Shown in pieces: positions 1,816 to 35,225 of a DNA stretch of 64,000 bases. A program made the translations under genes and the position numbers. The stretch is from Dryocola sp. LX212 (GTDB lineage Bacteria > Pseudomonadota > Gammaproteobacteria > Enterobacterales > Enterobacteriaceae), in contig CP167917.1 in assembly GCA_041504365.1 (NCBI GenBank), positions 930,001 to 994,000 on the forward strand, written 5' to 3'. Positions within the stretch are counted from its first letter, which is position 1. Every line of letters starts with the position of its first letter. The notes beneath the pieces were generated by a model. It saw only the letters and a program-made list of their open reading frames with translations, ran no database searches and was not told the origin of the DNA.

Positions 1816-1896
1816 GTCAATTTGATGTCACACAGCATCAGATGCAAAAAGTAATGGGCATTATTGTGTCCAGTCGTTTCGTGTCGGGAGAAAAAA

Positions 1897-6977: not shown

Positions 6978-7019
6978 TAACGCCTTGCATACCTTTAAAA
7001 CTCACATATTCAGGTTTTT

Positions 7020-10801: not shown

Positions 10802-10823
10802 CCTCCTGACGGACAGTGAAAGT

Positions 10824-11297
10824 ATGTCGGCAAAAGCCCGTTTTTTGAAAAAATTGCAGGATCAACACCCCCGCAGCACGGCCTTTGGCACGAAGGCCGA
10901 AGCTGATATCGCGGCCTTTCGCCAGGGAATAAGCCAGCTTCAGGCGTCAATGGAAACATGGCTTGCCGGAACAGAAGTGCGCACTGAAACCACAAACACG
11001 GCGCTGGTTGAGTTTCTGATTGGCGGTAGCACATTTTCCGTCCCGGGTATCGTCCTGCACTATCAGCAGCGGAATATCCGCTTTACCCCCATCTTTCTTT
11101 ACGGCCAGGGCGTGACCGGCTGTGTTGAGGTCTGCCTGAGTACAGCGGGCGATATCCGGCCCCTGTACCGCCTGTTTATGCGCAGCGGTGAGGGGGAGGG
11201 ATGGACCTGTTGTCCGGCGGGAGCGCTGAGCGTAAATCCTGCCCCATTTGATGAAGAAGCGTTCTTTACGATGATTGCTCCTCTGCTCCCTGAGTAA
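10824..11297 (+). CDS. Unrecognised T6SS-linked protein
   Basis: 157 residues from the ATG at 10824. A TTG 45 bases upstream, inside tssE, is a possible longer start, but neither has a strong ribosome-binding site. There is no signal peptide or membrane helix. The N-terminal ~60 residues are helical and polar; the C-terminal part is predicted beta-rich (FLIGGSTFSVPGIVLHYQ). I do not recognise the family. It lies between tssE and a VasL gene, is on the same strand and is GC-rich like them, so it is probably an accessory T6SS cytoplasmic protein. Confidence 0.7.
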   Translation: MSAKARFLKKLQDQHPRSTAFGTKAEADIAAFRQGISQLQASMETWLAGTEVRTETTNTALVEFLIGGSTFSVPGIVLHYQQRNIRFTPIFLYGQGVTGCVEVCLSTAGDIRPLYRLFMRSGEGEGWTCCPAGALSVNPAPFDEEAFFTMIAPLLPE

Positions 11298-11329
11298 CCC
11301 CCGCCTCTGACTTTGACCCTGCTCTTTTT

Positions 11330-19690: not shown

Positions 19691-21125
19691 TCAGCACTTT
19701 TCAAGCACGTACTGGCCTGGCGCATCGTAGATTGGTGGGTAACGTGTATTTCCTAATTCAGGAGATGGGACGAGTTTGTTGACATTTTCCTGCTCAACTA
19801 GCCAACTATACCAATGCTCCCACCAGGACCCAGGTTGAAAAACAGCATTCTCCAGCCATTTATTATGGTCGGATGAAGTTAAGGGACTAGTCCAGTAACC
19901 ATATTTATTTTGTTGAGGAGGGTTAATGATGCCTGCAACGTGCCCGGATTTACCCAAGGTGTACTGGCAGTCTTTGGGTAATTTACTTGCCCCCATGAAA
20001 CATGCTTCCCAGGGGTTATGTGATCGCTTTGTGTACCAACAAAATAAGAAGGTGAAGTTATAGATTCTATATTAACGGTAACCCCTCCAATTTGAATTCC
20101 CTCTGAACCAGAAAAATTATTCGCTTTGTAAAATTCATTACTAATGCCATGGCAGAATTTTGTATTAAGATTCATACCATCACCGCTCCAGAACAGGAAA
20201 TCAGAAATCGTGGGGGGTACCTGAAAAATATTTACTGATATAGTAATTCCAGTACAATGTGTTTTCGCGTAACAAATTGAACACTACATTCAGATCTCTT
20301 CCATCAATATGTTTATTAATACTATCAGCAGACAACAGTAGCTGGCACATAGGGTTGTTGATGAAATAAGCCAGATCGCCAGGACTGGTAAAGTCCAGAA
20401 GGGTCGCAAAAAATGAGGTTGTTTTAATCTTAGATGGTAGCCCTTTTTTGTTATAATAGGCTACGGTCAGTGCCAGCAGGGTCCCGCCAAGACAATAGCC
20501 TACAGCGTGGACTGATTTTTTTAGTAATATTAGTGATAACAGATAATGCTACAGTTACACCCTTCAGAATATAGTCTGAGATACCATGATTGTCTGTATC
20601 AGGCCCAGGGTTACGCCAGGATATCATGAAAACAGTATAATTTTTCTCAACTAACCACTTGACCATCGATTTTTGATCATTTAAATCAAGAATGTAATAT
20701 TTATTAATTACGGATGGTACGAATAGTAAAGGGGTTGAATGTGATTTTTCGCTGTTAGATTTATACTGAATGAGTTCAAATAGATCATTTTTAAAAACAA
20801 CACTACCGCATGTAGTAGCAATATTCTGACCAACTGTAAATGAATTATTGGGCGTGAGTTGTATGTTAAGAAAGTTAGCACTATTTTTTAGATCGTCATT
20901 AAAATATTCTAGCCGAGAAAGGAAGTTGTCAATATTATTATTGTCTGTGACATCATTGGTCAAACCATAATATTTAAGCAATGATAATGATTGTGTTTGT
21001 ATAGCACTTGAAAGTTGACGATACAAGAAATGCTGCTGTCCGTTATGGTCAGTCTGTTTTTCTGCGAAACTACCAAAAGTATTATTAGAACAATTGTCGA
21101 TAAATTGTTGCATAAAGTTAATCAT
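19691..21125 (-). pseudogene. phaC: Poly(3-hydroxyalkanoate) synthase PhaC, broken by three frameshifts
   Basis: Read across frames this is a class I-like PHA synthase. The N-terminal part ends in PLLFVPSVINKYYILDL and MVKWLVEKNYTVFMISWRNP. The next frame carries the lipase-box-like GYCLGG with the nucleophile Cys. The next has GTQSDHITP (catalytic Asp), and the last GKSGHVAGIINPP (catalytic His) and NKYGYW. The breaks sit at a 7-T run (20516-20522), a 6-G run (20212-20217) and a 5-C run (19990-19994), plus-strand bases. Removing one base at each of the first two and adding one at the third restores one open frame. All catalytic residues survive, so decay is recent or the calls are wrong. Confidence 0.9.
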
Positions 21126-21186
21126 TATAACCCCATTAAATTTTATATGAAATATTAATTATAATAAATAGAAATTCAAAAAATAT

Positions 21187-21210
21187 AGCCGTTCTGAATT
21201 CAGAACGGCT
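21187..21210 (-). terminator. Rho-independent terminator after the phasin gene
   Basis: Perfect 24-base palindrome (AGCCGTTCTGAA and its complement). On the minus strand it is followed by TATTTTTT. It lies seven bases beyond the phasin stop and before the phaC start, so it would limit read-through from phaB-phaP into phaC. Confidence 0.8.
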
Positions 21211-21216
21211 AATGAC

Positions 21217-21570
21217 TTACGAGGCCTTTTTCGACGTTGGCACGTACGCTTCTTTTTGAGGTGGCACCATGTCGTTTTTGAATACACTCATCATTTCTTT
21301 CATTGCAATGAGATTTTCAATATTTTTGTTGGACAACATAGCCATATTAGCCATGGTCTGCTCATTATATTTAATGAATGAGTTTAACTCCTTGATGTTA
21401 TTGGCTCCCTCAAGCTGTGAGATAAAGACGTTACTGTAGGTTTCAGCCATATCTTTATTAAGTTTGATGGCCTTGCAAGTATTGTCTACACAATTATCTT
21501 TTAAGTTACCGATCGGTTCGAAAGCAATGGTCATTTTTTCAAGAACTGGTTTGTAAAATTTATCGTACAT
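21217..21570 (-). CDS. phaP: Phasin-like PHB granule protein
   Basis: 117 residues, intact, nearly all helical and amphipathic, without a signal peptide. It begins MYDKFYKPVLEKMTIAFEPI, like small phasins of phaBPC clusters, and has a Lys/Pro-rich tail. Phasins coat PHB granules and control their size. GAGG lies just before the ATG. Placement between phaB and phaC (order B-P-C) matches phaBPCA-type operons such as those of Acinetobacter, except that no phaA follows. The assignment rests on size, helicity and context. Confidence 0.75.
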   Translation of the reverse strand: MYDKFYKPVLEKMTIAFEPIGNLKDNCVDNTCKAIKLNKDMAETYSNVFISQLEGANNIKELNSFIKYNEQTMANMAMLSNKNIENLIAMKEMMSVFKNDMVPPQKEAYVPTSKKAS

Positions 21571-21623
21571 AAATACCTCGTTATTATGAAATTAAAATAC
21601 TTATATTTTTGAAATTAAATTTT

Positions 21624-22360
21624 TTACTTCATATAAAGACCTCCATTGATTGAGATTGTTTCGCCTGTGATATAGCCAGCTGATGTACTAGCGAGAAAAA
21701 CAGCAGCGGCAGCAATCTCATCAGGTGTACCCATCCTTTTAAGTGGGATACCATCCTGGATACTTTCGAGGACGTTATTGGGAATTTTTTCCAGCATCGG
21801 GGTCTGGGTATATCCCGGAGCAATGGCATTTACAGTAACCTGATATCTTGCACCTTCATATGCTAATGCTTTTGTAAAGCCAAGCATTCCCGCTTTTGCC
21901 GCGGCATAATTAACCTGACAAAACTGACCTTTTAAGGCATTAATTGAACTGATATTAATTATCCGGCCATATTTATGGTTGCACATAGATGAAAATAGTG
22001 GCTTGGTTACGTTATAAAGACTGCCGAGGTTCGTGTCGATCACCGAATCCCATTGTTTCCGTGTCATTTTTTTGAAACAGACATCATCTGTACAACCGGC
22101 ATTATTAATAAGGACATCTATTTTTGTATGAACGTCAAGAAGTTCACCGATTACAGATTGACATTGTTCGGTGTCAGTAACATCAAGCGAGACTAGTTGT
22201 ACCTGCTGCGGAGAATAAGAATTTTTCCTGTGCCAGCTTTTTGCTTCCACTTCACTCCAGGGGGATGCACTGCCAAAACTTTATAGCCTGATGAAATGAA
22301 ACTATTTGTCATTGCTGAGCCTATACCACCTTTGGCTCCTGTTATTAAAACGGTTTTCAT
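21624..22360 (-). pseudogene. phaB: Acetoacetyl-CoA reductase PhaB (SDR), one frameshift
   Basis: The ATG at 22360 follows GAGGGA and opens MKTVLITGAKGGIGSAM, the Rossmann TGxxxGIG. About 30 codons later, around 22258-22275, the frame shifts by one base. The rest reads on from MEAKSW to the NNAG motif, the catalytic SSINALKGQFCQVNYAAAKAG (Ser, Tyr, Lys) and a C-terminal GETISINGGLYMK. With one base restored the length is ~246 residues, exactly that of PhaB. The enzyme would make 3-hydroxybutyryl-CoA with NADPH. Intact translation is impossible as read, though the downstream frame could give an N-terminally truncated product. Confidence 0.85.
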
Positions 22361-22407
22361 ATTATCCCTCGGTTATAAATACTGGGGTTATGCACCCCAT
22401 CAGTCAG

Positions 22408-22776
22408 TTAAGCGTCGACGAGCATCGCAGAGTAAATCACGACATTTTTGTCAGTTTCATTTTTCCACCAATGCGCAACATCATTGAACTCAATACTCAC
22501 TGAACCAACGGAATGGAAGATTGGCATCTCATGATTTGAGTTATATTCAACAATACTGCCTTCAGCGATATACATAATTGCCGGGCGATGAAGATGCGAA
22601 TGAAAAGAAACAATGCCGCCAGGCTCAACTTCGACTTTGTTCAAGCGAAGGCTTTTATCAATAAGATTTCTTCCACCTGGCGCAATATTCACATCATGAA
22701 GCGCGATCGTCCCAAGAACGCTTTCGGTTTCACCAACTGATTCCATAGGAACTGATTTTTGATGTATGAATGTCAT
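22408..22776 (-). CDS. Small cupin-domain protein
   Basis: 122 residues, a single cupin barrel. Cupin motif 1 reads PGGIVSFHSHLHRPAIMYI (two His of the HxH metal site) followed by AEGS; motif 2 contains FNDVAHWWKN. AAGGAA precedes the ATG. It lies between phaB and the patatin gene in the PHB cluster. It is clearly related to the cupin at 30263-30670 (same HSHxxRPAxxY core and H-W-KN motif), which suggests duplication within the island. The substrate is unknown. Confidence 0.82.
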   Translation of the reverse strand: MTFIHQKSVPMESVGETESVLGTIALHDVNIAPGGRNLIDKSLRLNKVEVEPGGIVSFHSHLHRPAIMYIAEGSIVEYNSNHEMPIFHSVGSVSIEFNDVAHWWKNETDKNVVIYSAMLVDA

Positions 22777-22803
22777 ATTGTTAGTTTCCTTATTAAAATA
22801 TTA

Positions 22804-23813
22804 TTAGTGTGAAATTATTTTCTTTAAGTTGACGCTATCTGAAACGCCGATCATATCGTAATTTTCATCAATCCAACGTGCCGCAGCATTACGGCCAATT
22901 TCTTTTAGATGTAATAAAAATGAAAGTTCTGTATTCATTTTAGAGGATGCCCCTAATGGATTCATGTGCTCTTGAGATTCGATAATATGAATTTTCATAG
23001 AACGATATTTTTTGTTATCGATAATATTATCTTTTAACAATCGTTGGATGAATTCGATAGCACGTAACTCTTTCAACAAACTTTGATTGAAGGTTATCTC
23101 ATCAATGCGGTTGTTTATCTCAATATTAGTTTTGGGCTTATCTTGTCTGACTATTGGGCTGATTTGCACAATGACAATATCTTCACATTCACCATTTTTT
23201 ATTATTGGGTATAGAGGAGGGTTACCTGAATAACCACCATCCCAATATAGTTTGCCTTCTATTTCAACAGAATCATATAGCCTTGGAAGGCACGCTGAAG
23301 CCATAATGACATCAAGCGAAAGTTCATGGCGATGGAAGACTCTTGCTTTACCCGTCTCAACCTGAGTGGTACCAACAAAAATTTTCGGACCCGGTTGCTT
23401 ATGCAAATTTTCAAAATCTATTGTGGTACTCAAGATTTCCCGTAATGGATTAATATTGAGTGGGTTCATTGTTCCCGGGGTAAAGAATCGCGACATATAG
23501 TCCATATAAAGATAAGCAGGACTATTGTCGATATTCCAGTTTCCCATCCAGATGTCAAAAAATGAACGATGAATTAATCCATATTTTGATAGCGCATGCC
23601 AAAATCCGGACAGTTTTTCACGGGCCAATTCAGCATTCCCTGAGCTTAATCCATCAGCAGTGATGACAGCATTGATAGCGCCTGCGGAAGTACCGCTAAT
23701 TGAACATAGAGAAAGCGAGCCTTCCTCAAGAATATAATCAATAACGCCCCAGGTAAAAGCGCCGTGGGCCCCTCCACCCTGGAGGGCTAGATTAATACTT
23801 TTTTCTTTTTCAC
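22804..23813 (-). CDS. Patatin-like phospholipase (start region frameshifted)
   Basis: About 335 residues. The patatin motifs are complete: LALQGGGAHGAFTWG (oxyanion GGGxxG), GTSAGA (nucleophile Ser in GxSxG) and DGGYSGNPP (catalytic Asp). Relatives sit beside 3-hydroxybutyrate dehydrogenase genes in other proteobacteria, perhaps acting on granule lipids or PHB. The likely start is the GTG at 23813, four bases after GGAGAG and just beyond the dehydrogenase stop, but it is one base out of frame. Losing one T from 23799-23804 or 23806-23810 would join them as VKKKSINLALQGGG. Without that, the only open start is a long implausible one antisense-free at 23898 inside the dehydrogenase gene. Confidence 0.82.
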
Positions 23814-23828
23814 TGGTCTCTCCAACTG

Positions 23829-24626
23829 CTATTGTGCAGTCCAGCCACCATCGATTGTGAGGGCTGCACCCGTTGTTGATGCGGCTTCTTCCGTACACAG
23901 AAAACTGACCATTGCAGAAATTTGCTCCGTGGTAACAAATTTTTGGGTTGGTTGGGCAGCAAGCAGGACTTTTTCAATCACTTCTTTTTCTGTCATGTTT
24001 TTTACTTTTGCCGTTTCCGGAATCTGACGCTCGACTAAAGGTGTCAGAACATATCCTGGGCAGATCGCATTTACGGTAATATTCTCTTTTGCAACTTCAA
24101 GAGCGATGTTTTGTCAACCCGATAATGCCATGCTTCGCAGTAACATAGGCCGACTTAAAAGGGGAGGCTACAAGGCCATGTGCAGAGGCAATATTGATAA
24201 TTCGACCGAACCCTCTTGCCTTCATATCGGCTATGACAGCTTTAATCAGATAAAACGCAGAGGATAAGTTGAGGTTGATGATTTTTTCCCACATTTCATC
24301 AGGGAAATCTTCAACAGGTGAAACATGCTGGATACCTGCGTTATTCACCAGAATATCAATTTCTCCAAACTCTTTCTTAACTTTAGCAATAAAAACTTGC
24401 GCTTCGTTTGCATCAGATAAGTCTGCACATAAGTAGACGACCGTAACTTTGTGTTTTATGGCAAATTCATCACACGTATCCTTCATGCTTTGAGCACTTT
24501 CGATGCCGTGCAAAATAATGTCACAGCCTTTCGCTGCAAGCGCATCTGCAATAGCATATCCAATACCACTTGATGAGCCTGTGATAATGGCTTTTTTCCT
24601 GCGAATATTTTTTCAATATGATCCAT
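23829..24626 (-). pseudogene. 3-hydroxybutyrate dehydrogenase (SDR), two frameshifts
   Basis: The first codons read MDHIEKIFAGKK; after a 6-T run at 24592-24597 (plus strand) the frame must change to read AIITGSSSGIGYAIADALAAKG. A second break at the 4-T run 24109-24112 separates the catalytic part (NNAG, Ser in IASAHG, YVTAKHG) from ALEVAKENITVNAICPGYV and the family-typical end LTIDGGWTAQ. Reassembled it is ~260 residues and matches NAD-dependent D-3-hydroxybutyrate dehydrogenases, which oxidise PHB monomers to acetoacetate. It is the first gene of the PHB cluster. All active-site residues survive. Confidence 0.85.
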
Positions 24627-24713
24627 GGTCTATCCTTATAGAATATTATCGGATTGCGAACTGTAGAGTATGATATTCAAACCCTTAAATTTTTTGTGGT
24701 CTATGATTTTTTG

Positions 24714-24983
24714 TTATCGATAAATAATTGCGGTTGCACTTATATCTGAACCCATGCCCACACGACCCATCGATGTAACCCGATAGTGGGTGGCCGATTC
24801 CCTATCTGCCGCTTTACTTAGTGCCGCCATTGCTTCTGAATAGGTACCATTTTTTACACTCACAGAAACATGACCAATTTCTTGTTTCATGTCAGGTATT
24901 TCTCTGTCATGGATTTCTGTGGCAGCCAGAGAAGTAAAACTGATGCTCATTAGTAACGGAATGACATAAAATATTTTTTTCAT
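24714..24983 (-). CDS. DUF1471 (YhcN/RclB-like) small periplasmic protein
   Basis: 89 residues from the ATG at 24983, which has AAGGAAG upstream. Signal peptide ending SFTSLAA, then a BhsA/McbA-type fold: VSVSVKNGTYSEAMAALSKAADRESATHYRVTSM followed by a final strand ISATAIIYR. DUF1471 proteins are small stress-induced periplasmic proteins of enterobacteria; RclB of the reactive-chlorine operon belongs here. It follows an RclC-like gene, which supports the comparison with RclBC. Confidence 0.82.
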   Translation of the reverse strand: MKKIFYVIPLLMSISFTSLAATEIHDREIPDMKQEIGHVSVSVKNGTYSEAMAALSKAADRESATHYRVTSMGRVGMGSDISATAIIYR

Positions 24984-25100
24984 AGACTTCTTCCTTTTTC
25001 TAAACACTTTAAGTGCTGGAAAATATTAACTATTTTTATGTTGCATCTCTATTTTTTTTGCAACGCTTAAATATTTTTTGTAGCAATGGTCGGTTACGCG

Positions 25101-25553
25101 TTATCTCACTTCAAGCAAAACGAAAGATGCGGCGAGTAAAACAATATCCTTTAGTAAAAACTGAGAAGTACTGCTAAGTGCTGGAAACCCTCCAGCTTCA
25201 GCGACAAACTTCCCCGGTGTACTAAAGAGCAAAGTTGTTGTCATAATAAAAGTAATTGTTGACCCCATTGCACCAAGCAAACCAGGCAAACGGAACCAAA
25301 ATCCAAGCAACAACAGCAGACCATAAAGCCATTCTGCAACACCCAGGATAAAACTACCTCCTCTGATACCTACCACTTGATACATCCATGACAGGAATGG
25401 GCTGTTTTCAATAAAGTTGACTAATCCTTGTGCTTCGTAGTCAAACCATTTGGCATAACCAAAGAAAAAGAAAATGACAACCAGGCTTAAACGCAACACA
25501 AACATATCAAGATTGTTTATCCCTATTGCGGGTTTTTGTTGATTACTCTCCAT
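25101..25553 (-). CDS. DUF417 (YkgB/RclC-like) inner-membrane protein
   Basis: 150 residues with four hydrophobic helices. The start (LDMFVLRLSLVVIFFFFGYAKWFDYEAQGLVNFIENSPFLSW) resembles RclC/YkgB; the family's longer loop between helices 1 and 2 is missing, which explains the shorter length (RclC is near 197). GGAGG sits four bases before the ATG. RclC is part of the HOCl-induced rclABC operon of E. coli; its biochemical role is unknown. No rclA-like flavoprotein or RclR-like regulator is in the window. Confidence 0.82.
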   Translation of the reverse strand: MESNQQKPAIGINNLDMFVLRLSLVVIFFFFGYAKWFDYEAQGLVNFIENSPFLSWMYQVVGIRGGSFILGVAEWLYGLLLLLGFWFRLPGLLGAMGSTITFIMTTTLLFSTPGKFVAEAGGFPALSSTSQFLLKDIVLLAASFVLLEVR

Positions 25554-25559
25554 AATGCC

Positions 25560-26820
25560 TCCTGTTAGATATTCAATTAAGGGTCATATAAGTTGCCTTA
25601 TCTATTAATATAAATGGATGTTATTGCATCATCTTATATATGACTACAGTTGTTATTAACTGCTTTTTTATTTCCCATTCCTTTTTTGTACGCGGATACT
25701 AAATTTGAAGCCAATGCTTTTTAATTTAAAATTAAATTTTATAGCTGTTTTATATCATTGGGTTAGTTGAATCGGTTCAGCATGGTAAATTAAGTTAATT
25801 AATTTATAGGATGTTATCTTTGTATGGTCTTATATGTTCCTCATGCCATTAAAAATGATTAGTGCTACAGATACTAGTTATTTCATACTGGGAGCCTGAA
25901 TTCCGCAACCAGGCGCATTTCCCTCGTCCATCACCATAGTGGTTGGCGTTTCGAACTAAAATCGGTACCGTATGTTCCCGTTAGAGGTAGTTACTTAGTC
26001 CTAATGCTGGAGAAAAATGTAGGGGGCGTAATAAATCGCGGCGCCGAATAGCCGCACGCTTATGAAAGTAAGACAGGTTTAGATTTCCTTCAAAATGGTA
26101 GCTATGTTCTCCAGTTGAGGTTTGGCTGTAACAAGAAATGCTTGTATTCAGGCTAGATATAATTCGGGCCAATGACTATCAAATCCAGATTGCCGGGTTT
26201 AGTACGTCAGCTGTCGATTAGCTGGAGAGTTTCTTCCTGGCAGAATTGCGATACTGTAGTGATTAAATCTTGAGCATTAACGCGGGGAGTGAGCTGGAGG
26301 CAAGTTGTCACCGGTTTGCGAGTTAAAAAGCGGTAAACCTCTCATGAAAATTACGCATTCAAACGATGGTGACCGCCAGTATTTGAATGAGAGGGTCGGG
26401 TAGCCTCTAAGGTGCCATTCCTGGTCGTCACTTTAAGGGATGTAGGTTTGCTACTGCAGGTGATGCGAAACCGGTGATGAATGCCTCGAGGCCATCTTTA
26501 GATACGCCGACCGGGAATATATCTGCTTACAGAAAGATTGCGCAAAGCCCGTTAATGAATACGGCATGGCCATACAGTCAAGATTAGGTGTCAGCATACC
26601 TGGACTGCCGCCATACACCCCATAATTCCGACCTTACCCACATCAATAATGTGAATAATGTCGGGATTATGGGGGAGAGTTTTTTCGCACTGCCGCTTTG
26701 ACCTTCAGCAACAGCCGTCACTGAAGACAACAATGTCACCCGGCAAATACCAGTATAGCAGATCGTTAGCATTCTTTATTCATGATATGCCCTCATTATT
26801 TTTGATTTGCTATTATGTTA
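25560..26820. other. Gene-poor stretch with a long hairpin
   Basis: About 1.26 kb between the DUF417 gene and the DUF302 gene. The part near 25,560-25,860 is very AT-rich and should carry the promoter for the RclBC-like pair. From ~25,900 the composition rises towards 45-50% GC, unlike its neighbours, suggesting decayed foreign sequence. Short frames exist on both strands (for example 25981-26172 and 26584-26772, minus), but none has a recognisable domain or good start. A strong imperfect palindrome lies at 26618-26674. Confidence 0.5.
26618..26674. repeat. Long imperfect palindrome
   Basis: 15-base arms CCCCATAATTCCGAC and GTCGGGATTATGGGG match at 14 of 15 positions around a 27-base loop, and the loop contains a smaller CACAT/ATGTG repeat. 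It lacks a following T-run on either strand. It could be an old IS end pair, a protein-binding site or a structured RNA; I cannot choose between these. Confidence 0.6.
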
Positions 26821-26827
26821 TGTGTAC

Positions 26828-27244
26828 TCACCAACTGACGGTATAGTCGAGCCATCCAGGCAATAAATGATAAATTTCTGTAACAGCACCATCAGCGCCA
26901 TTCAGGTCGTAAGCGTTGTTCATATGGTCTATATCAGTACAGCGGATCCAGACTTGTCCATCGTCTGCCTTCCAGATAAACACCTTTATTGGCAGATCAA
27001 ACCCTGCTTCAATATTTGTTGAAATGATTTTGCCAACCAAAGCACAATTTTGAAACAGTAGGCACTCAGCCTCTCTGATTTTAATATCTCTGAATTCAGC
27101 GACTTTTTTCTGATCGACACGAGCAATGATCATTACAGAAGGGTATTCAGCAAGCTTACCCAGCAACCTGTCAGCTGTTTCTTTGACTGAATACGGGCTT
27201 TGTCTTAGCCATTTACTATTATAACTACCTTTTAACTGGCTCAT
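26828..27244 (-). CDS. DUF302-domain protein
   Basis: 138 residues, no signal peptide. The central part matches DUF302: IIARVDQKKVAEFRDIKIREAECLLFQNC, then AGFDLPIKVFIWKADDGQVWIRC. DUF302 proteins are small alpha/beta proteins, often near oxidative- or metal-stress genes; no activity is established. AAGGATTAAAA precedes the ATG. It is the last gene of the long minus-strand run that begins at 34847. Confidence 0.82.
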   Translation of the reverse strand: MSQLKGSYNSKWLRQSPYSVKETADRLLGKLAEYPSVMIIARVDQKKVAEFRDIKIREAECLLFQNCALVGKIISTNIEAGFDLPIKVFIWKADDGQVWIRCTDIDHMNNAYDLNGADGAVTEIYHLLPGWLDYTVSW

Positions 27245-27283
27245 TTTTAATCCTTGGTCTATTTAATGTGATGGGTAACAATA

Positions 27284-27526
27284 CTATAGAGCATTAACAT
27301 CTGCCGGATCCCAAATTTCCATGATCAAATACGTAGCAGAATGTGTGGACGAGTCAATATTTATAGACGCGTCTTTATTATTTACCAAGTCGACAGGTGG
27401 TGATTTCTCAAGCGCCTGCTTGTGGTTATTGGTAGCAATGTTGAGCTTACCATCAAGGACGATTAGATATGTGGGTCGATTTGTATAGTCCTTATGCGGC
27501 AACGCAACACCTGGCGCTAACTTCAC
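27284..27526 (-). pseudogene. Cupin remnant (N-terminal part lost or frameshifted)
   Basis: 80 codons open with the cupin-like KLAPGVALPHKDYTNRPTYLIVLDGK and end EIWDPADVNAL. There is no good ribosome-binding site, and the start would be a GTG. One base added near 27528 would extend the frame upstream to LPLEKFNQ, but no ATG follows before a stop, and only 60 bases separate it from the hupE-like stop. It looks like a third, decayed member of the HxxxxxRPxxxY cupin group in this island. Confidence 0.55.
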
Positions 27527-27586
27527 TGGTTAAATTTTTCAAGCGGTAGGGTAAATAATAAGATGTATTTAGATTTCCAGTTTTAA

Positions 27587-28165
27587 TTAAATAATGGTCG
27601 TCAACATATACAGGCCACAGATGGCACTTATAGACCCAAGAATACGCAATAGTATATCACCACCATGCGTTTTCAAAAGATAGTGTGCACATACAGCACC
27701 CATGAGATGCAATGTTGCGGTGGTCGCCAGGAATCCAGCAGTGTAGGCCAATTTATTCTGCATTAACGGCATTTCGTAACCATGAGCGTAGCCATGGAAA
27801 ATACCAAAAAATGCGGTCGCCATTGCAGCCAGATACACTGGCAGGATCTTTTTCACACTGATAGCCAAACCGAGCAGTAGCACAGAAAGGGAGACGCCCA
27901 CTTCTGTACCAGATATTTCGATGTGCTCGAAGCCGATTAACCCGCCGGTAAACATGAAGAAGACAAAAGCGGAAGGTACAATCCAGATTGCTTTGCCTCC
28001 AATCTGGCTGCTCCAGGCGCCGACAGATATCATTGCTAAGAGATGGTCCATCCCGGACAGGGGATGTAACCAACCCGTTGATTCGCCGCTGCTATGTGCA
28101 TAGGCGCTGTTCATCATTAATAAAGATGCAAGCAGTAGGGAAATATTGACAGGTGACTTATTCAT
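27587..28165 (-). CDS. HupE/UreJ-family membrane protein
   Basis: 192 residues from the ATG at 28165, which overlaps the previous stop (ATGA). A signal-like helix is followed by HSSGESTGWLHPLSGMDHLLAM, the metal-binding HP(L)xGxDHxxxM signature, and five further helices including FGIFHGYAHGYEMP with more His. HupE/UreJ proteins are secondary nickel or cobalt permeases or their outer-face diffusion facilitators. Its coupling to DUF4198 suggests a joint envelope metal-handling role, but which metal is not shown. Confidence 0.9.
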   Translation of the reverse strand: MNKSPVNISLLLASLLMMNSAYAHSSGESTGWLHPLSGMDHLLAMISVGAWSSQIGGKAIWIVPSAFVFFMFTGGLIGFEHIEISGTEVGVSLSVLLLGLAISVKKILPVYLAAMATAFFGIFHGYAHGYEMPLMQNKLAYTAGFLATTATLHLMGAVCAHYLLKTHGGDILLRILGSISAICGLYMLTTII

Positions 28166-28998
28166 GCCGCATCTCCTTCTGCCACCGGGAGAGTTATCGA
28201 TGCCCAAATACTCTTCCAGTCAGCGTCTTCAAGCGGCGAAGTATCCATATCGACAGAACTAAATAACCATTCACCCTTTTGCGGCAAAATAAAGCTGGCA
28301 AGACCTTGCTCGTCGGTAGTGGCTCGCAGGATAATCGGCGGTGTAGTGTTTAATTCTGCTTTAACTTGCAGATTGGCTAATGGTTGGGAAGACGATAATA
28401 ATTTAACGACGTAAGGGGTACCCGGCTTGTAGTACAGCGGTTCGGTGACGGGTACGAGTTCATGCTCGAGTCCGATAACTTTGTTGTACCCTTCACTTTT
28501 ATTATCGACAAAAATAAGCGCTTTAGCACAGCGGTAAAAAAGTTCACTTCCAGGCTGGTCTGAAGCACCGTTATCTTTACGAGCAGTGATAATTTTACCT
28601 AATCCCTCTTCCTTTAAGTAATCCTCAAATTCATCTGCGGGTAGCGTGATTTTTGCCCCATTAGTGGTGAGCGAAGCAATAGTCGCCCCTGAAACTCGAG
28701 TTTTAAGATGTCCAATCACCAGCGCGCCATCATGGCCAGCGACTTTCCGCTGCCCTAACGCATCCCAGGAATTAAATGTTTCAATAAGACCTGGAAGGCG
28801 AGGGGTTTGTTTACCCGGGACACCTGGCCCTATGCGTAATTCAAAAACAACCTGATTGCCTTTGGCTGTAAGTGCGTCGTGGGGCAAGATCCAAAAGTCA
28901 TGAGCGAAAGCATTGCTGCTGCACAGGGCCAGCAGTCCCAAAATTTGCTGAAAACGTTTAATAACTGCTTTAGGTATCCTGAATGCCGATCCTGTCAT
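28162..28998 (-). CDS. DUF4198 periplasmic protein
   Basis: 278 residues with a signal peptide ending SSNAFAHDFWILPHDALT, where the His residues directly after cleavage are typical of the DUF4198 (nickel uptake substrate-specific-like) family. A beta-rich body follows, with a Greek-key-like C-terminus (LRATTDEQGLASFILPQKGEW). Members sit beside TonB receptors or HupE/NikMN genes and are thought to help metal uptake. Its stop overlaps the HupE/UreJ start by four bases, so the pair is translationally coupled. Confidence 0.85.
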   Translation of the reverse strand: MTGSAFRIPKAVIKRFQQILGLLALCSSNAFAHDFWILPHDALTAKGNQVVFELRIGPGVPGKQTPRLPGLIETFNSWDALGQRKVAGHDGALVIGHLKTRVSGATIASLTTNGAKITLPADEFEDYLKEEGLGKIITARKDNGASDQPGSELFYRCAKALIFVDNKSEGYNKVIGLEHELVPVTEPLYYKPGTPYVVKLLSSSQPLANLQVKAELNTTPPIILRATTDEQGLASFILPQKGEWLFSSVDMDTSPLEDADWKSIWASITLPVAEGDAA

Positions 28999-29028
28999 AC
29001 CTCAATCCTTTGTCAGGGCTTAAAAGTT

Positions 29029-29065
29029 ATCAGCCATGCATGATATATAGCTGAACATGGCTGAT
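29029..29065 (-). terminator. Hairpin between DUF4331 and DUF4198 genes
   Basis: 10-bp inverted repeat ATCAGCCATG / CATGGCTGAT with a 17-base loop, 14 bases after the DUF4331 stop. Only a short T-rich stretch (AACTTTTAA) follows on the minus strand, so it may attenuate transcription or protect the upstream mRNA rather than terminate fully. Confidence 0.45.
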
Positions 29066-29078
29066 GGTATTTCGGAGC

Positions 29079-30140
29079 TTATTTCAGCTCGCCTGGGATC
29101 AAATACGGGAAGTTTTTCGTATATAACTTCTGATTAATGATGTGTTGATCGGTTGGCTGACCAATCAGTAACGTTAGCATAGCACTCATTGCGTCATCAC
29201 TCAGGCTCCGGCCGTTGATTGATGCCGCTGAAAACTTAGCGGGAGTCCCTACTTTGTAGGTGATAACGTCAGGCACAAGCATATTGGCAACTTTGTCGCC
29301 GTAAACCTGCGGCTCCTTCTGAGAATGTGCGAAGGTACTGGCGCGGGCGGTACGAGCCGAAACAAAATTCTTCATGTCCTGCGAATTATCAGGACGGCTT
29401 TGGTTATGCTCGGCCTTAAGGTATTCATTCTCAAAAATCATGGAGTGAGAGAACAGTGGTATTGCCGAGTATTGCACCTGTTTCCAGCTGGCATCTTTAT
29501 CGACTGCTGTGGTCATGAAGACCTGAATTTTTTTACCCAGCATTTTGTTAGGAATATCAAGGACGATGGCCCCGCAATTGCGGCCGGTGAAGATATTTTT
29601 ACCTTTGACGGACGTCCAGATATTTGGATCATAACTCCCCTTAGCCAGCTGATCACGCAGGATATGTAGGCCCGGAGAGTTGCCGAAGAACGGGTCTTTT
29701 GCCACCCCAGCCCAGACCAGAATACCGTTACTCAGTTTGGTGCTTTTATCCTTTTCACCGTTACCGATTTCCTTGCCCTTTGTGCCTATTGGCGCGTTAG
29801 GAGCTGCAATTTCATGGACCGTGTAGTTTCCCTTATCATCAAAAATTAGAGAGAAAGTGTGCCCGGTTTTAAAATGTGCATCATCAGAAATATGGATGTT
29901 ATACATTGCGCCTGGTTTGAAAACGCCACCAGGCACATTTTTTGGGGAGGGGTTAATATCCATGATGAAGACGGTTGCATTTGGTCGGGTAGACTGGAAG
30001 ACATAGTTATCGAGCTGATTGATTGTCGGATCCTGCAGCACGGCAGCGGACTCGAAATGATGGCTGGCAAAAGCGCTACCCGAACAAGCGAGCAAGGTGG
30101 CGAGAACAATCATATTAATATTCAATTTGTGATCGCACAT
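29079..30140 (-). CDS. DUF4331 exported protein
   Basis: 353 residues. Signal peptide ending SGSAFA, then SHHFESAAVLQDPTINQLDNYVFQS, the DUF4331 start in which His residues follow cleavage and an aromatic LDNYVF motif precedes a strand (ATVFIMDINPSP). DUF4331 proteins are secreted and beta-rich and occur beside HupE and similar genes; no activity is known. Length is normal for the family. AAAGGG precedes the ATG. Contains a single Cys after the signal region (GRNCGAIVLDIP), in the family core. Confidence 0.82.
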   Translation of the reverse strand: MCDHKLNINMIVLATLLACSGSAFASHHFESAAVLQDPTINQLDNYVFQSTRPNATVFIMDINPSPKNVPGGVFKPGAMYNIHISDDAHFKTGHTFSLIFDDKGNYTVHEIAAPNAPIGTKGKEIGNGEKDKSTKLSNGILVWAGVAKDPFFGNSPGLHILRDQLAKGSYDPNIWTSVKGKNIFTGRNCGAIVLDIPNKMLGKKIQVFMTTAVDKDASWKQVQYSAIPLFSHSMIFENEYLKAEHNQSRPDNSQDMKNFVSARTARASTFAHSQKEPQVYGDKVANMLVPDVITYKVGTPAKFSAASINGRSLSDDAMSAMLTLLIGQPTDQHIINQKLYTKNFPYLIPGELK

Positions 30141-30262
30141 AATAATCCCTTTGTTAAATATTATATATACTACTGATACAACCCGATATAATATATGCGG
30201 TTGTATCCTGGTATATAAATTCGCTACCTTAAATATGGAGTCCGTAGCTAATGACCTGATAC

Positions 30263-30670
30263 TTAGCAGCCGTTTTCACAATCTATAGAATCAGGGCCGT
30301 CATCAAGTAGATCGAATGTCAGAACACGCAATGGTATGACATCGGAACGATTCTTAACCCAATGCTCTGTGTCGTTGTATTCTGCATAGCAATCACCTTC
30401 TTTCCAGATAGCTGTGCCAGGATGTTTATTGCTATGCTCTTCGCCGGAACCTTGAAGCACATATAACAATGCAGGGCGATTTTTATGTGAGTGCAGGGGG
30501 ATGATTTTTCCTGGATGGCATTCAAGCACTCGGCAGCGCATCCTTCTTTCAAGGAGTGGTTTTGCACCTTCGGGGACAATAATATCTGCCATAAAAATTG
30601 ATGCCAATTCGGTAGATATCTCATTCTCATTTAGTGCAATAGTCTCTTTTGGGTAAGTTACATTATTCAT
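30263..30670 (-). CDS. Small cupin-domain protein
   Basis: 135 residues, one cupin domain: ECHPGKIIPLHSHKNRPALLYVLQGSG (HxH and Gly of motif 1) and YNDTEHWVKN in motif 2. It is close in pattern to the cupin at 22408-22776. Likely a metal-binding cupin; substrate unknown. It lies between RidA and DUF4331 genes in the same transcription direction, with short gaps of 36 and 122 bases. Confidence 0.82.
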   Translation of the reverse strand: MNNVTYPKETIALNENEISTELASIFMADIIVPEGAKPLLERRMRCRVLECHPGKIIPLHSHKNRPALLYVLQGSGEEHSNKHPGTAIWKEGDCYAEYNDTEHWVKNRSDVIPLRVLTFDLLDDGPDSIDCENGC

Positions 30671-30705
30671 AATATGTATTCCTATTGTGTCATATGATTA
30701 TCAGG

Positions 30706-31056
30706 TTAAATTCCTGCAAAAACCTGAACTTCTACCTGCCATTCGGGGTTAGCCAGACGAGCAACCTGAATAGCTGAGCGTGAGGGCGATTGCCCGTTTT
30801 CGGAATCAATCCATTGATCCCATACTTGGTTGAACAACTCATAATTGTTCATATCTGTCAAAAAAATATTGGCATATATAACCTTTGATTTACTGGTGCC
30901 TGCTTTTCGCAGAAGTTCGTCGATGTGCCTGAATAAATTCTCGGCCTGTTCGGTTACACCATGTCCTTCGGATATCTGTCCTGACAGCACCACTAAATTT
31001 CCATTTAATGAGGCTTGACTCATACGTGGACTGGAATCAATTCGTTTAATTTCCAT
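30706..31056 (-). CDS. RidA-family protein (YjgF/YER057c/UK114)
   Basis: 116 residues, the size of RidA. It shows LVVLSGQISEGHG, EQAENLFRHIDELLRKAG and KVIYANIFLTDMNNY, and a NPEWQVEVQVFAG end. The Arg that holds the imine carboxylate is expected in the SPSRSAIQV segment and is present. RidA proteins deaminate reactive enamine/imine intermediates, and E. coli RidA becomes a chaperone after N-chlorination by HOCl. GGAGA precedes the ATG. Confidence 0.9.
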   Translation of the reverse strand: MEIKRIDSSPRMSQASLNGNLVVLSGQISEGHGVTEQAENLFRHIDELLRKAGTSKSKVIYANIFLTDMNNYELFNQVWDQWIDSENGQSPSRSAIQVARLANPEWQVEVQVFAGI

Positions 31057-31231
31057 TTATTCTCCTGGATGGATCAAAAACAGATGTTAAGTGTTAATGA
31101 GATTCATGATTTCCTATCCTTGCTTCCTGTTGTATCCTCAGAACCCCGTTTATTTATCTGAAGCACATTACTCTAATTTTGAAAGCGATACAGTCCTGTG
31201 TTCGTGGTTATTCAGCGGGGGAGATAATTGT

Positions 31232-32539
31232 TTAATGTTGATAAGGAATCGTCACAATCCCATAAGAGTGGATCTTATCGCTGCCAGGATACGCCGCAAC
31301 TTTTGTTAAGCCGCCATTATGTTCATCAATTTTGAAGACAAATGTTTTCCCGGTATTACCACTAATCACATTCACATACTTGCTATCAGCGCTCATATCC
31401 ATATCGAGGAAATATTCGCCATAACCTGGTTCCTGATAGGCTAGCTCTTTATCAAGTTTGATACTGCTATCCTTATTAACGCTATAAGTTGAGATACTTG
31501 ATGTTAGCGGATTTGTTGTCCAGGCATATTTCCCGTCTTTTGAAACAGTTACCCAACATACAGCTTGCTGGCCACCCCAAATACCGCTACCGGCGAGTAC
31601 ATCGGGGGATACCATGGTTAATTTCCCTTTATCATCGATATTATAAGATGTGACGGAACCTGTTTGCCCCTGGAAAAGATGAATGAAAGGGTATTTCTTT
31701 TTCTGTTCAGGTGTTGACTTATAGAAATTATGTGAACTATCTATGAATCGTGTTTCGGTAACCAGCAGTGTGGTATTGCCGCCTTCGGCCTTGGTCATTT
31801 TGGTGCCAATAGGCAATGCGAAGAAACGATTTTTATCAGCTTGTGGTGAATAAATCATCGAAACGGGATCGGCGGACAATACGCCATCTTGGCCAATCGC
31901 GTAAGAGCGAATCAGCCCTGTGGTAATTTCTACCGCGACAAGATATTTACCATCTGGAGTAATTTCAATACTTGCCGGGCGACCTGAAAGCTTACGTAAC
32001 GAATTGGGCATTGCGGATAAACGGCCAGTATCATCAATGGTATAAGCTTTGATGTTCCCTTCGGAAGGATCGTCAACCTTCTTACCCATACTGGCAACAT
32101 AAACATAGTTCTTAAACGATGCAATACTATTCGGTTTGATATCTCCCGCAGTAATTTTATTAACCATTTTAAGCGAGAGATCATCTTCGACGTGCAGTGA
32201 AGTAATTGTGCCATCACCCGCATTCACGACAAGAACATTTTTATTATCTGCTGAACGCCACAAACCGTAGGAAGACGCTAGTGGATCAATACCATCTTTA
32301 AAAGTGTGGCCGGATGCAGGATCATACGGCAAGCCAAAAAGTTCGACATTTCCTGTTCCTTTACCTCCTGTTTTGAACTCACCAATTTTTGATAATGTTC
32401 CATCAGAAAATTGCTGATAACCTACCACTGAGTTTTCAGCAGCATTGTTAGTAGCAACATATACACCACCTGTAATATCTTTAGCGGCAGCATTAAATGA
32501 AAGGGAAACTAATACTGCACATAGCGTCATTTTTTTCAT
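31232..32539 (-). CDS. Exported beta-propeller (lactonase-like) protein A
   Basis: 435 residues with a signal peptide ending SFNAAA. Repeats with the pattern of YVTN/lactonase propellers are visible: GGVYVATNNAAENSVVGYQQFSDGTLSKI, NNKNVLVVNAGDGTITSLHV, NYVYVASMG, GKYLVAVEITTGLIRSYAI, GKYAWTTNPLTSSISTYSV and SKYVNVISGNTGKTFVFKI, about seven blades. It is paralogous to the protein at 33224-34486. No lactonase active site can be confirmed, and a ligand- or protein-binding role is equally possible. AAGGA precedes the ATG. Confidence 0.85.
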   Translation of the reverse strand: MKKMTLCAVLVSLSFNAAAKDITGGVYVATNNAAENSVVGYQQFSDGTLSKIGEFKTGGKGTGNVELFGLPYDPASGHTFKDGIDPLASSYGLWRSADNKNVLVVNAGDGTITSLHVEDDLSLKMVNKITAGDIKPNSIASFKNYVYVASMGKKVDDPSEGNIKAYTIDDTGRLSAMPNSLRKLSGRPASIEITPDGKYLVAVEITTGLIRSYAIGQDGVLSADPVSMIYSPQADKNRFFALPIGTKMTKAEGGNTTLLVTETRFIDSSHNFYKSTPEQKKKYPFIHLFQGQTGSVTSYNIDDKGKLTMVSPDVLAGSGIWGGQQAVCWVTVSKDGKYAWTTNPLTSSISTYSVNKDSSIKLDKELAYQEPGYGEYFLDMDMSADSKYVNVISGNTGKTFVFKIDEHNGGLTKVAAYPGSDKIHSYGIVTIPYQH

Positions 32540-32632
32540 AAAGCATCCTTGATATATAATAATGTTAGTTTAAATAAATAAGCGATGATAGTCATTCTTA
32601 AAAAATATTTGTTGCAGGTGATAATATTGTCT

Positions 32633-33193
32633 CTATTGGCCTGGAGGGGTAGAAATTTTCCCTTGAGCCATAAATATTCTGGACCAAATGTTCATTAATA
32701 ATGTGGTGTTGGTTAACTCCTCTATTTCTGGTTGGCTAAACCCCGTGCTGATTAATTTGTCGAAAGCCAATTGGATATTGTCGTAATTTAATTCCGCAAG
32801 TGTTTCTGCATAATTTAACGCTGCTTTCTCCTTGCTGGAAAATAGATCGCTTTGGCGCCATGTAGAAAGACTATCTACTTTAGCCATTGGAATAGCTAGT
32901 TTGATGGTTTGTTTAGTATGTAAAATTACACAGTAATTACATTTATCAATCTGTGAAACTCTTAATCTAACCAGTTCTGCTAATTTACTATCAATGTATT
33001 TTAATTTGGTTGAATCTGAGCCATAATCTTTTGCCCATTCTTTTGGTAATTTAAGATAATCAGTACTGTTGCTTCCCAAACGAGTTACTTTAAATGTCAC
33101 ATCGTTATAATCCCTTTGCGAAATGTTTTTTTGCGCATAAGCATCTGTGTAGAAACTAAAAATCATCAGAACAGATAACATAATTTTTAACAT
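32633..33193 (-). CDS. Exported AhpD/carboxymuconolactone decarboxylase-like protein
   Basis: 186 residues from the ATG at 33193, which has GGAG six bases upstream; a start four codons earlier is less good. Signal peptide ending TDAYA. The CMD core reads LAELVRLRVSQIDKCNYCVILH with the redox CxxC and the following His of AhpD-like peroxidase partners, then a second helical pair (EKAALNYAETLAEL). AhpD-like proteins are usually cytoplasmic, so a periplasmic version between two beta-propellers is unusual. Confidence 0.85.
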   Translation of the reverse strand: MLKIMLSVLMIFSFYTDAYAQKNISQRDYNDVTFKVTRLGSNSTDYLKLPKEWAKDYGSDSTKLKYIDSKLAELVRLRVSQIDKCNYCVILHTKQTIKLAIPMAKVDSLSTWRQSDLFSSKEKAALNYAETLAELNYDNIQLAFDKLISTGFSQPEIEELTNTTLLMNIWSRIFMAQGKISTPPGQ

Positions 33194-33223
33194 GGCGAAC
33201 TCCATTCGTTAGTGAGTAATTGA

Positions 33224-34486
33224 TTAAAAACCATCAATACCTTGTGTGCTGTTTAATGGGATAGCATTGTCACCAACCCTGATCAGTTCATCACCAGACA
33301 TTTTGTACCCTATCAATTTAGCCGCCGACGGGTAAAGTTGGTAAAAGTAGCCATTAGGTGATGACCAGTTTCCAATTGGTGAACCCGACGCGATAGCATG
33401 CATGTCGTTTGAGAGATCTGTTTTCTCTAACAGTCCCTGTTTACCTTTACCGGTGGTGATGTTATTGCCATTAATGCGGAAGCTAATCACTTCACCAATA
33501 TCAAAGGCAGAAACATACGCGACTTTGCCATCGACAGAGTAGCTGACCCAGCAGGTGCCAACTTTGCCATTTTCATCAGCTTCGCCAGCCGGTGATTGTG
33601 CTGAAGAAAGGATTTGTACATTACCGTTTTCATCGATATGGTTAAATACCGCAAGGCCAGGTGAAGAATCGAGAGTATTAACAAAGTCTCCTTTCCTTTC
33701 GGACATAAACCGGAGCCCAAAAGGTGCTGGGCCTCCGGCGTCAAAGAAGCGCGGCTTTCCCAAATTACCATCATGTTGAATTGGGTATACGGCAAGGCCA
33801 TCCTTTATGTCGGTATTAGAAGGAAATGCCTGAAGCTTTCCGTTGACCTTTTGCGGACGTTTTTCAAAAACGACATTCGCTAAAAGGAACTTATTAGTAG
33901 GGTCCACCTGTATCTGGCTTAAAACACGGTCGTGTGCCTCCGGTGTATTCACCGTCTGTGTCACTTTCAACAACTTCAAACGTCCATTGCTGACTTTAAA
34001 TGCTTTTATATGGTCGGGTCCAAAGGAATGCCCCACATAAAGAATATTCAGTTTATCGTTATATGATAATGTATTTGCATTGCCGGATTCCCCGGTTGCT
34101 TCAACATCGATGAATTTTAGCTGGCCATCTTTCTGGATGCTAAAACTAGAGACACTGTTATCTGCGGTGTTCACTACAAATAGAAGCTTATGATCCTTGC
34201 TGAGGGTGAGCGCACCTGAACTGGCGAGCGCATCCGGGGCTGAAACTTGATCGGTAAGTTTCTTATAACCAGCAGTACCTTTCCCATTAGTCGGTAATCG
34301 GCTAATTTCAACTAATTCCCCATCTTTCTTTTGCGCATAATGAATGACCTTGTTAGCTGCGTCATTACTATTAACATAAACATGGTGACCACTAAAGTCG
34401 TCAGATCCATTTGCATAACTATTTTGTGAAATCATGATTGAGCTAATGAGCAGCATGTAAAATTTGTTTTTATTGAAATTTACCAT
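33224..34486 (-). CDS. Exported beta-propeller (lactonase-like) protein B
   Basis: 420 residues with a signal peptide ending SQNSYA. It has the same propeller repeats as protein A: HHVYVNSNDAANKVIHYAQ, HKLLFVVNTADNSVSSFSI, LNILYVGHSFGPDHIKAF, GKVAYVSAFDIGEVISFRI. Shared blade order, Ala-Ala-Asn motifs after blade one and length point to duplication. Its start follows AAGGAAGAG. It lies upstream of the AhpD-like gene with a 30-base gap, so the three form a tight cassette. Confidence 0.85.
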   Translation of the reverse strand: MVNFNKNKFYMLLISSIMISQNSYANGSDDFSGHHVYVNSNDAANKVIHYAQKKDGELVEISRLPTNGKGTAGYKKLTDQVSAPDALASSGALTLSKDHKLLFVVNTADNSVSSFSIQKDGQLKFIDVEATGESGNANTLSYNDKLNILYVGHSFGPDHIKAFKVSNGRLKLLKVTQTVNTPEAHDRVLSQIQVDPTNKFLLANVVFEKRPQKVNGKLQAFPSNTDIKDGLAVYPIQHDGNLGKPRFFDAGGPAPFGLRFMSERKGDFVNTLDSSPGLAVFNHIDENGNVQILSSAQSPAGEADENGKVGTCWVSYSVDGKVAYVSAFDIGEVISFRINGNNITTGKGKQGLLEKTDLSNDMHAIASGSPIGNWSSPNGYFYQLYPSAAKLIGYKMSGDELIRVGDNAIPLNSTQGIDGF

Positions 34487-34559
34487 TTATCTCTTCCTTT
34501 TAATATGTGGGTTTCTTGCAGGTGTCATAACAAATGAGTGCTAATTAATTCATATCTGA

Positions 34560-34847
34560 TCACGGAAAAAGCGTGGGCGTGATATTTGAATGTTTATTGA
34601 TATGTCCAGCTATACGCCGTAAGATATCGCCAATGAAATGAATCACGCTGGGAGTGAAAGTATAAGACAACACCCAGGTAATGAGAAGTCCTAGAAACTC
34701 TGGTCCTGCTGCACCTTGACTCCATTTATGCAATAGCAGTGTTGGAGTAGATATAGTAGCAGCGTAAATGTACGATAAAATTATATTCATTGAGATAAAT
34801 ATAAACAATGTAAACATTATTTGAATAGCAAATGAAAACTTTTTCAA
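34560..34847 (-). CDS. Small membrane protein of unknown function
   Basis: 95 residues from a TTG with AAGGAA six bases upstream. Two hydrophobic helices (about 8-30 and 50-68) and a polar C-terminus rich in His and Asn (GHINKHSNITPTLFP). It is the first gene of the minus-strand run, 73 bases before the beta-propeller B gene. I do not recognise it; the initiation codon and lack of family evidence keep confidence moderate. Confidence 0.6.
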   Translation of the reverse strand: MKKFSFAIQIMFTLFIFISMNIILSYIYAATISTPTLLLHKWSQGAAGPEFLGLLITWVLSYTFTPSVIHFIGDILRRIAGHINKHSNITPTLFP

Positions 34848-34849
34848 TG

Positions 34850-35222
34850 TAGGTTCCTTACTAACAATGCATTAATCATTTGATATTGAGCTGTATAATG
34901 GTCTCATTTATGCCCATTGGTTTATTTACCCTTTTTCCTGCTGAACTAACAATTATCAACTCGTATGAAGTTATGCAAAGCAAAGCTTGTTTAAAATTAA
35001 ATTTTCATTGTTTTCATGTTTGAATGTGTTAAGGATCACTGTTTAATTGTCTCATAAATGATTGTTGTTAAATGGCCTGATAATTATTTGAGGTTCTTTA
35101 AGTGAGTATTGGTTTAATATAAGACTAATATCTGGCGTTCATTTTTTAATTAATATATTTAAAAACACGGGTAAGTTAGTCTAATAAGAAACTACTTTCT
35201 CACTAAGTGGCGAATTAGGGGC
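34850..35222. other. AT-rich intergenic region at the right island edge
   Basis: About 370 bases with no convincing gene. It should contain the promoter of the minus-strand secreted-protein cluster. The GC-rich hpx region begins right after it. No tRNA gene, integrase or clear direct repeat marks the edge. Confidence 0.6.
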
Positions 35223-35225
35223 ATT

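Follow-up and report, generated by a model that had tools for sequence, protein, structure and literature searches.

A horizontally acquired gene cluster in Dryocola sp. LX212 that may couple reactive-chlorine-type defense to nickel/copper capture

Why would one gene run combine exported DUF4331 and DUF4198 proteins and a nickel/cobalt-type permease with distant relatives of RclB and RclC? The question is raised by a minus-strand cluster at positions 24714-34847 of a 64,000-nucleotide stretch of Dryocola sp. LX212 (contig CP167917.1, positions 930,001 to 994,000), referred to here as the window. A first-pass annotation, made from the sequence alone, had proposed that the run might be one periplasmic system, possibly redox or metal related. 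We found that the cluster exists as described, was acquired and is maintained at least in large part, and that it is an assembled composite of separately recurring modules, not a conserved whole. The explanation that we prefer, at a probability of roughly 45%, is a horizontally acquired composite envelope locus in which a reactive-chlorine-type defense is coupled to Ni/Cu capture and uptake.

A composite gene cluster in a tRNA-Asp island

The run consists of 13 open reading frames (ORFs), all on the minus strand and at the places given earlier. Pfam agrees with the names given earlier: PF10282 (twice), PF02627, PF01042, Cupin_2, DUF4331, DUF4198, HupE_UreJ, DUF302, DUF417 and YdgH_BhsA (DUF1471); the small membrane protein and the cupin remnant matched no Pfam family. 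In the list, an arrow marks a cleavage site.

34560-34847, minus strand: small membrane protein, 95 aa, TTG start; heads the run
33224-34486, minus strand: propeller 1, exported lactonase-type beta-propeller (PF10282), 61% identical to a Scandinavium plasmid protein
32633-33205, minus strand: exported carboxymuconolactone decarboxylase (CMD)/AhpD-type protein with a CNYC motif (PF02627), here the CxxC protein
31232-32539, minus strand: propeller 2, exported (PF10282), 78-79% identical to a congener protein whose gene likewise adjoins a CxxC gene
30706-31056, minus strand: RidA-type protein (PF01042), without export signal
30263-30670, minus strand: cupin 1, without export signal; adjoins the RidA gene here and in the congener
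29079-30140, minus strand: exported DUF4331 protein, mature N-terminus S-H-H-F-E by eye, an S-x-H of the amino-terminal Cu(II)- and Ni(II)-binding (ATCUN) type
28162-28998, minus strand: exported DUF4198 protein, mature N-terminal His (AFA↓HDFW)
27587-28165, minus strand: HupE/UreJ Ni/Co-type permease; the ORF is listed from 28207, and an ATG at 28165 overlaps the DUF4198 stop
27284-27526, minus strand: cupin remnant, 80 aa, matching a longer cupin protein solely over the latter's second half
26828-27244, minus strand: DUF302 protein (Pfam)
25101-25553, minus strand: DUF417 membrane protein, distant RclC relative (28%, E 6e-16)
24714-25007, minus strand: exported DUF1471 (YdgH/BhsA-like) protein, weak RclB relative (31%, E 5e-4)

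The spacing also bore out the first-pass annotation, which had described short gaps followed by one of 1.3 kb: from the first gene through DUF302 the distances range from an overlap (DUF4198/HupE) to 175 bp, and 1,274 bp precede DUF417. Its seven export signals correspond to seven plausible signal peptides (A-x-A, by eye), in both propellers, the CxxC protein, DUF4331, DUF4198, HupE and DUF1471; the RidA-type protein and the cupins carry no export signal. Promoter-like matches (27 versus 30.5 expected) and terminator-like matches (8 versus 8.8) are not above chance and thus give no support for co-transcription.

The ratio of nonsynonymous to synonymous polymorphism (pN/pS) against relatives was 0.14-0.30 in the nine genes compared (all of the 13 except the small membrane protein, cupin remnant, DUF302 and DUF1471), the ratios being rough because synonymous sites are near saturation. 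These values indicate purifying selection and hence that those nine genes are maintained. The cupin remnant, which shares 32% identity with the second half of the longer Scandinavium plasmid cupin protein, and the neighboring polyhydroxybutyrate genes look decayed.

The cluster forms the right end of an island of about 92.6 kb inserted at a tRNA-Asp gene.

35222-35223, no strand: right junction of the tRNA-Asp island

From 35223 onward the sequence is again homologous to three congeners. In two of them tRNA-Asp ends two bases before this point, with a dnaQ-like gene (by eye) on its left; the third (G002) has different DNA there. The same left flank and tRNA-Asp end occur in the window's own genome at contig position 872571-872577, and the interval from there to contig 965222, about 92.6 kb, is an insertion relative to the two congeners with an empty site. 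A tyrosine integrase lies within the island (contig 903014-904222), as do a type VI secretion cluster and fimbrial genes (both named by eye). G+C is 38-47% in the cluster region, about 59% in the DNA to its right and 56-62% in the type VI part to its left, and this unevenness marks the island as a mosaic.

Nickel-type genes recur beside DUF4331

We scanned one genome per species (84,980) for DUF4331 with a three-sequence alignment that included the window, which yielded eight loci. DUF4198 and HupE lie downstream of DUF4331 in six: Rahnella bruchi, Cedecea sulfonylureivorans (NZ_JAERMU010000036.1; the same match occurs in congener G002), Pseudomonas segetis, P. antarctica, where a cytochrome c gene intervenes within the set, and two Halomonas. 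The two most distant loci (L027 and L028; Pseudoalteromonas luteoviolacea and Shewanella hanedai) carry a divergent Cupin_6-AraC regulator with 28-30% identity to Escherichia coli RclR. Among 13 plasmid records with DUF4331, nine were read, and a Ni/Co-type permease gene adjoins or lies near DUF4331 in four of these (HupE in three, HoxN/NixA in one). Three of the four are rhizobial plasmids, in which DUF4331 adjoins HupE or HoxN/NixA; the fourth, from P. aeruginosa, carries DUF4331, cytochrome c, DUF4198 and HupE genes, with DUF417 about 1.8 kb past HupE.

Searching with PF14224 at E 1e-10, we found 15 of 398 phylum genomes and none of 14 control genomes positive; a six-frame genome search at this threshold missed the window's own divergent copy, which scores 69 bits against a PF14224 cut-off of 27. 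A HupE_UreJ_2 protein is encoded downstream of DUF4331 in 10 of the 15 distant genomes (8 of 11 genera; two by Pfam, the others by BLAST to these two), and in nine of the 10 a signal-like stretch is followed by an N-terminal His (by eye; the start of the tenth is unread). A divergent DUF4198 stands beside DUF4331 in two (one by Pfam) and neither partner in three. Genes for an extracytoplasmic function (ECF) sigma factor and an RskA-type anti-sigma factor adjoin in nine (one pair by Pfam, the others by BLAST). Many of these loci (L053-L065) combine DUF4331 with the ECF sigma factor, RskA-type anti-sigma factor, a lipoprotein-like immunoglobulin/cadherin protein, a tetratricopeptide repeat protein and the HupE_UreJ_2 permease.

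The window's DUF4198 protein matches PF10670 (E 3.6e-26), and its mature N-terminal His recurs as FA↓H in three relatives (cleavage site by eye). The permease matches PF04955 over its full length (E 1.4e-45), with the His-rich segments HPL-G-DH and FG--HGYAHGYE invariant in three proteins. A published DUF4198 protein binds Ni via its N-terminal His (PMC12537917), and the gene most strongly induced by Ni in a Sphingobium encodes a HupE/UreJ-domain protein (PMC5557971). The one hydrogenase-family match in the genome above the Pfam cut-off covers 68 of 508 positions; paired CxxC motifs in the 574-residue frame at this place resemble those of [NiFe]-hydrogenase large subunits (by eye, HycE/HyfG-like) and hint at a possible Ni user in the genome.

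A shared N-terminus in DUF4331 proteins

ATCUN is a textbook Ni/Cu-binding motif with the arrangement NH2-x-x-His. All 33 readable DUF4331 proteins would start with S-x-H, and hence with this arrangement, once processed (cleavage by eye), a pattern in the sequences that appears to be a new observation of this analysis; we found no paper on DUF4331 in the literature searched. The count omits a broken, unreadable Vibrio copy and four unread plasmid records, and takes the first G002 copy, the same gene as L022, once. All 15 proteins from the distant genomes read A↓SSHREAP after a signal-like stretch. The window and the eight species loci read A↓SHHFE; these nine are not independent evidence, since the window was in the alignment and the search pattern held the motif. 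Other exported members have A↓SQHFD (second G002 copy), A↓SDHQD (Nostoc) and A↓SHHFE (P. aeruginosa plasmid), and six proteins without a signal start M-SHH (for L073, this assumes a start at an internal ATG). A structure model of DUF4331 was weak at residues 1-6 and uninformative on the N-terminus.

From this pattern we tentatively suggest, as a possible though doubtful extension, that DUF4331 is an unrecognized metalloprotein family. Its mature Ser-x-His would be a Ni/Cu (ATCUN) site, formed by signal cleavage in exported and by Met removal in cytosolic forms, and the partners of the family would be Ni/Co permeases of different kinds. In this branch DUF4331 may have been recruited into reactive-chlorine defense, where it would either take away redox-active Ni/Cu or decompose hypochlorite by means of the metal that it binds.

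Oxidant-type genes recur as separate modules

A Scandinavium goeteborgense plasmid carries, in this order, DUF417 (61% identity to the window), propeller 1 (61%), cupin, DUF302-like (42%) and DUF1471 (44%). Both halves of that cupin match the window's cupin 1 (38% and 28%), and Pfam finds one Cupin_2; the DUF302-like protein, at 21.6 bits, falls just below the Pfam cut-off of 23. Congener G002 has on one strand DUF417 (35%), the methionine sulfoxide reductase (Msr) genes MsrB (SelR) and MsrA (PMSR), RidA (72%) and cupin 1 (81%), and elsewhere propeller 2 (79%) adjoining the CxxC protein (58%). In a Ca. Methylocalor plasmid, a distant propeller (24%) adjoins a gene annotated as peroxidase-related. 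The window's CMD protein matches PF02627 (E 1.8e-9) and contains CNYCVILH, which we take to be the AhpD-type CxxC...H motif. Its PDB relatives include AhpD (6k40), peroxidase-related proteins and a CMD-family protein.

Several of these families have been tied to reactive chlorine or related oxidants. RclB and RclC are required against hypothiocyanous acid (HOSCN) (PMC12096828), and RcrB, a DUF417 protein, against hypochlorous acid (HOCl) (PMC9600549). RidA turns into a chaperone upon chlorination (PMC7464077), and Msr enzymes are linked in the literature to survival of HOCl or HOSCN.

Cytochrome P460 genes were seen beside DUF417 in P. antarctica (L025 6895-7587), beside DUF4331 in a Halomonas (L026 9134-9793) and near a lactonase propeller in Sinorhizobium mexicanum (L032 6676-7272).

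Linkage in other genomes, which the first-pass annotation had set beforehand as a test, was thus found for DUF4331-DUF4198-HupE, propeller-CxxC, DUF417-propeller-cupin-DUF302-DUF1471 and RidA-cupin. Both halves agree with its description "redox or metal related". The idea of one periplasmic system fared less well: the modules recur, but RidA and the cupins lack export signals, no other locus with the full gene set was found, and the matching pieces of one congener are spread over five contigs, so "one system" is better put as an assembled composite.

Weighing a link between the two halves

In our preferred explanation, one half of the locus would serve oxidant defense, most likely against reactive chlorine, through DUF417 and DUF1471 (RclC/RclB type), RidA, the cupins, the CxxC AhpD-type protein, the two propellers and DUF302. 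The other half would be a Ni(II)/Cu(II) relay, in which the mature N-termini of the exported DUF4331 (S-x-H) and DUF4198 (His1) bind metal that then passes to the HupE permease. The halves might stay together because loose redox-active Ni/Cu worsens HOCl-type damage, or because its capture helps against such damage. An rcl-type gene lies within about 2.5 kb of DUF4331 in four of the eight loci (L022, L025, L027 and L028), from four genera in this small sample: C. sulfonylureivorans has DUF1471 (48%) just upstream, P. antarctica has DUF417, and the two distant loci have the RclR-like AraC gene, which was found beside DUF4331 only there. These genes form a loose tie between the oxidant and metal modules.

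Several points weigh against such a coupling. Loci L021 (which ends at a contig end), L023, L024 and L026 have no DUF417 or DUF1471 match near DUF4331 (the regulators of the last three were outside Pfam testing). In L027 and L028, the rcl-type gene is the AraC regulator only, at 28-30% to RclR, and both loci lack DUF4198 and HupE. Five of the nine plasmid regions have no Ni/Co-type permease in the gene table beside DUF4331; in its place, one of the five has a transporter of the TauE/SafE type and another a transporter of the tellurite-resistance family. No urease turned up in the genome, and the hydrogenase-type gene lies elsewhere, with no Ni enzyme linked to the cluster. On the oxidant side, the similarity to RclC and RclB is distant, and the DUF417 protein beside MsrA/MsrB (G002, L015) has no match to RclC. 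RclA is not in the cluster, no orthologue of it was found in the genome (best matches 29-30%), and no regulator, RclR included, was found among the 13 genes. Finally, rcl deletions in E. coli left periplasmic oxidation by HOSCN unchanged in the published work consulted.

A real possibility, though short of an even chance, is that two unrelated cargo modules, one for oxidants and one for nickel uptake, are mere neighbors in an island hotspot, each with a purpose of its own. The five contigs of the congener, the type VI secretion, fimbrial and broken polyhydroxybutyrate genes of the island, and the DUF4331 loci without DUF417 or DUF1471 nearby (four of eight, with two more having the AraC regulator only) are all consistent with it. 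Yet rcl-type genes beside DUF4331 in four genera and on a plasmid, if in a small sample, argue for more than chance proximity.

It is unlikely that the locus serves nickel/copper tolerance or acquisition, with the redox proteins merely repairing metal-induced damage. The DUF4331-DUF4198-HupE core would suit this role, as would the Ni-induced Sphingobium gene (PMC5557971), the description of RclA as a Cu(II) reductase (PMC7464077) and the hydrogenase-type large subunit encoded elsewhere. However, the 13 genes include no efflux pump or metal regulator, and the linkage with MsrA, MsrB and RidA speaks for HOCl. Pfam names such as lactonase (carboxymuconate-cyclase type), carboxymuconolactone decarboxylase and cupin, the annotation "3-carboxymuconate cyclase" and gentisate genes near the module on the P. 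aeruginosa plasmid might suggest a periplasmic aromatic-acid pathway. This reading is very improbable: the CMD protein has the AhpD-type CxxC and solved relatives that include, besides a CMD-family protein, AhpD and peroxidase-related ones, and Pfam identified no ring-cleavage dioxygenase in the run.

The mechanism of RclB and RclC against HOSCN is described as unexplained (PMC12096828). Should rcl-type genes prove tied to a Ni/Cu capture set, this would suggest that metal control is part of surviving bleach-like oxidants, an idea that would bear on both RclB/RclC and DUF4331.

Neighboring genes and repeats

Upstream of the run lie two copies of a 22-nt repeat:

34891-34912, minus strand: 22-nt repeat, first copy, possible operator
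35039-35060, minus strand: 22-nt repeat, second copy, possible operator

The window holds no further copy at up to three mismatches; elsewhere in the genome the core has no exact match and two sites with two mismatches. One regulator may use the pair as its operators. A 26-nt inverted repeat, 85% complementary, at window positions 26618-26674 in the 1.3-kb gap is possibly the remnant of a small mobile element.

Broken polyhydroxybutyrate-type genes occupy window positions 19691-24513, with PhaC in pieces, a phasin-sized ORF, a short-chain dehydrogenase/reductase and a 3-hydroxybutyrate-dehydrogenase-like gene that is split and read in two frames; an intact-looking patatin and a cupin gene adjoin them. 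A Rhizobium plasmid (L031) has patatin, 3-hydroxybutyrate dehydrogenase, LysR, cupin, major facilitator superfamily and DUF302 genes in one stretch, with identities to the window proteins at 22804-27244 of 42% (patatin), 49% (dehydrogenase) and 32% (DUF302), so the relation may reach beyond the end of the cluster. DoxX, DUF692 (MNIO) and DUF2282 genes stand beside the patatin and dehydrogenase genes there (L031 1766-6498). The type VI secretion cluster spans window positions 592-12748 and contig 905273-930322, with repeated similar ORFs of about 342 and 360 aa at contig 920-930 kb.

Comparison with known systems

The oxidant half most resembles RclABC of E. coli, a defense against HOCl and HOSCN, with which it shares a DUF417 membrane protein (PF04224, E 1.1e-31) adjoining a small exported DUF1471 protein (PF07338). 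In contrast to RclABC, the window cluster lacks RclA and RclR, has identities of just 28-31% and adds propellers, cupin and DUF302. RcrARB, which gives uropathogenic E. coli resistance to HOCl from an accessory locus, likewise includes a DUF417 protein, but the run has no RcrR-type repressor and the remaining genes differ (PMC9600549). The metal half shares an exported N-terminal-His DUF4198 protein adjoining a HupE/UreJ permease with the Ni-binding DUF4198 proteins and HupE/UreJ-2 "anglerases" (PMC12537917). Unlike the latter, the window's permease best matches plain HupE_UreJ (PF04955), without the N-terminal Ang domain, and DUF4331, unnamed in the accessible text of that paper, comes first in the window's gene order. 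Lastly, a small cupin tied to chlorine redox genes and mobile DNA is also described from chlorite-dismutase neighborhoods (PMC9751292); no chlorite dismutase is among the 13 genes.

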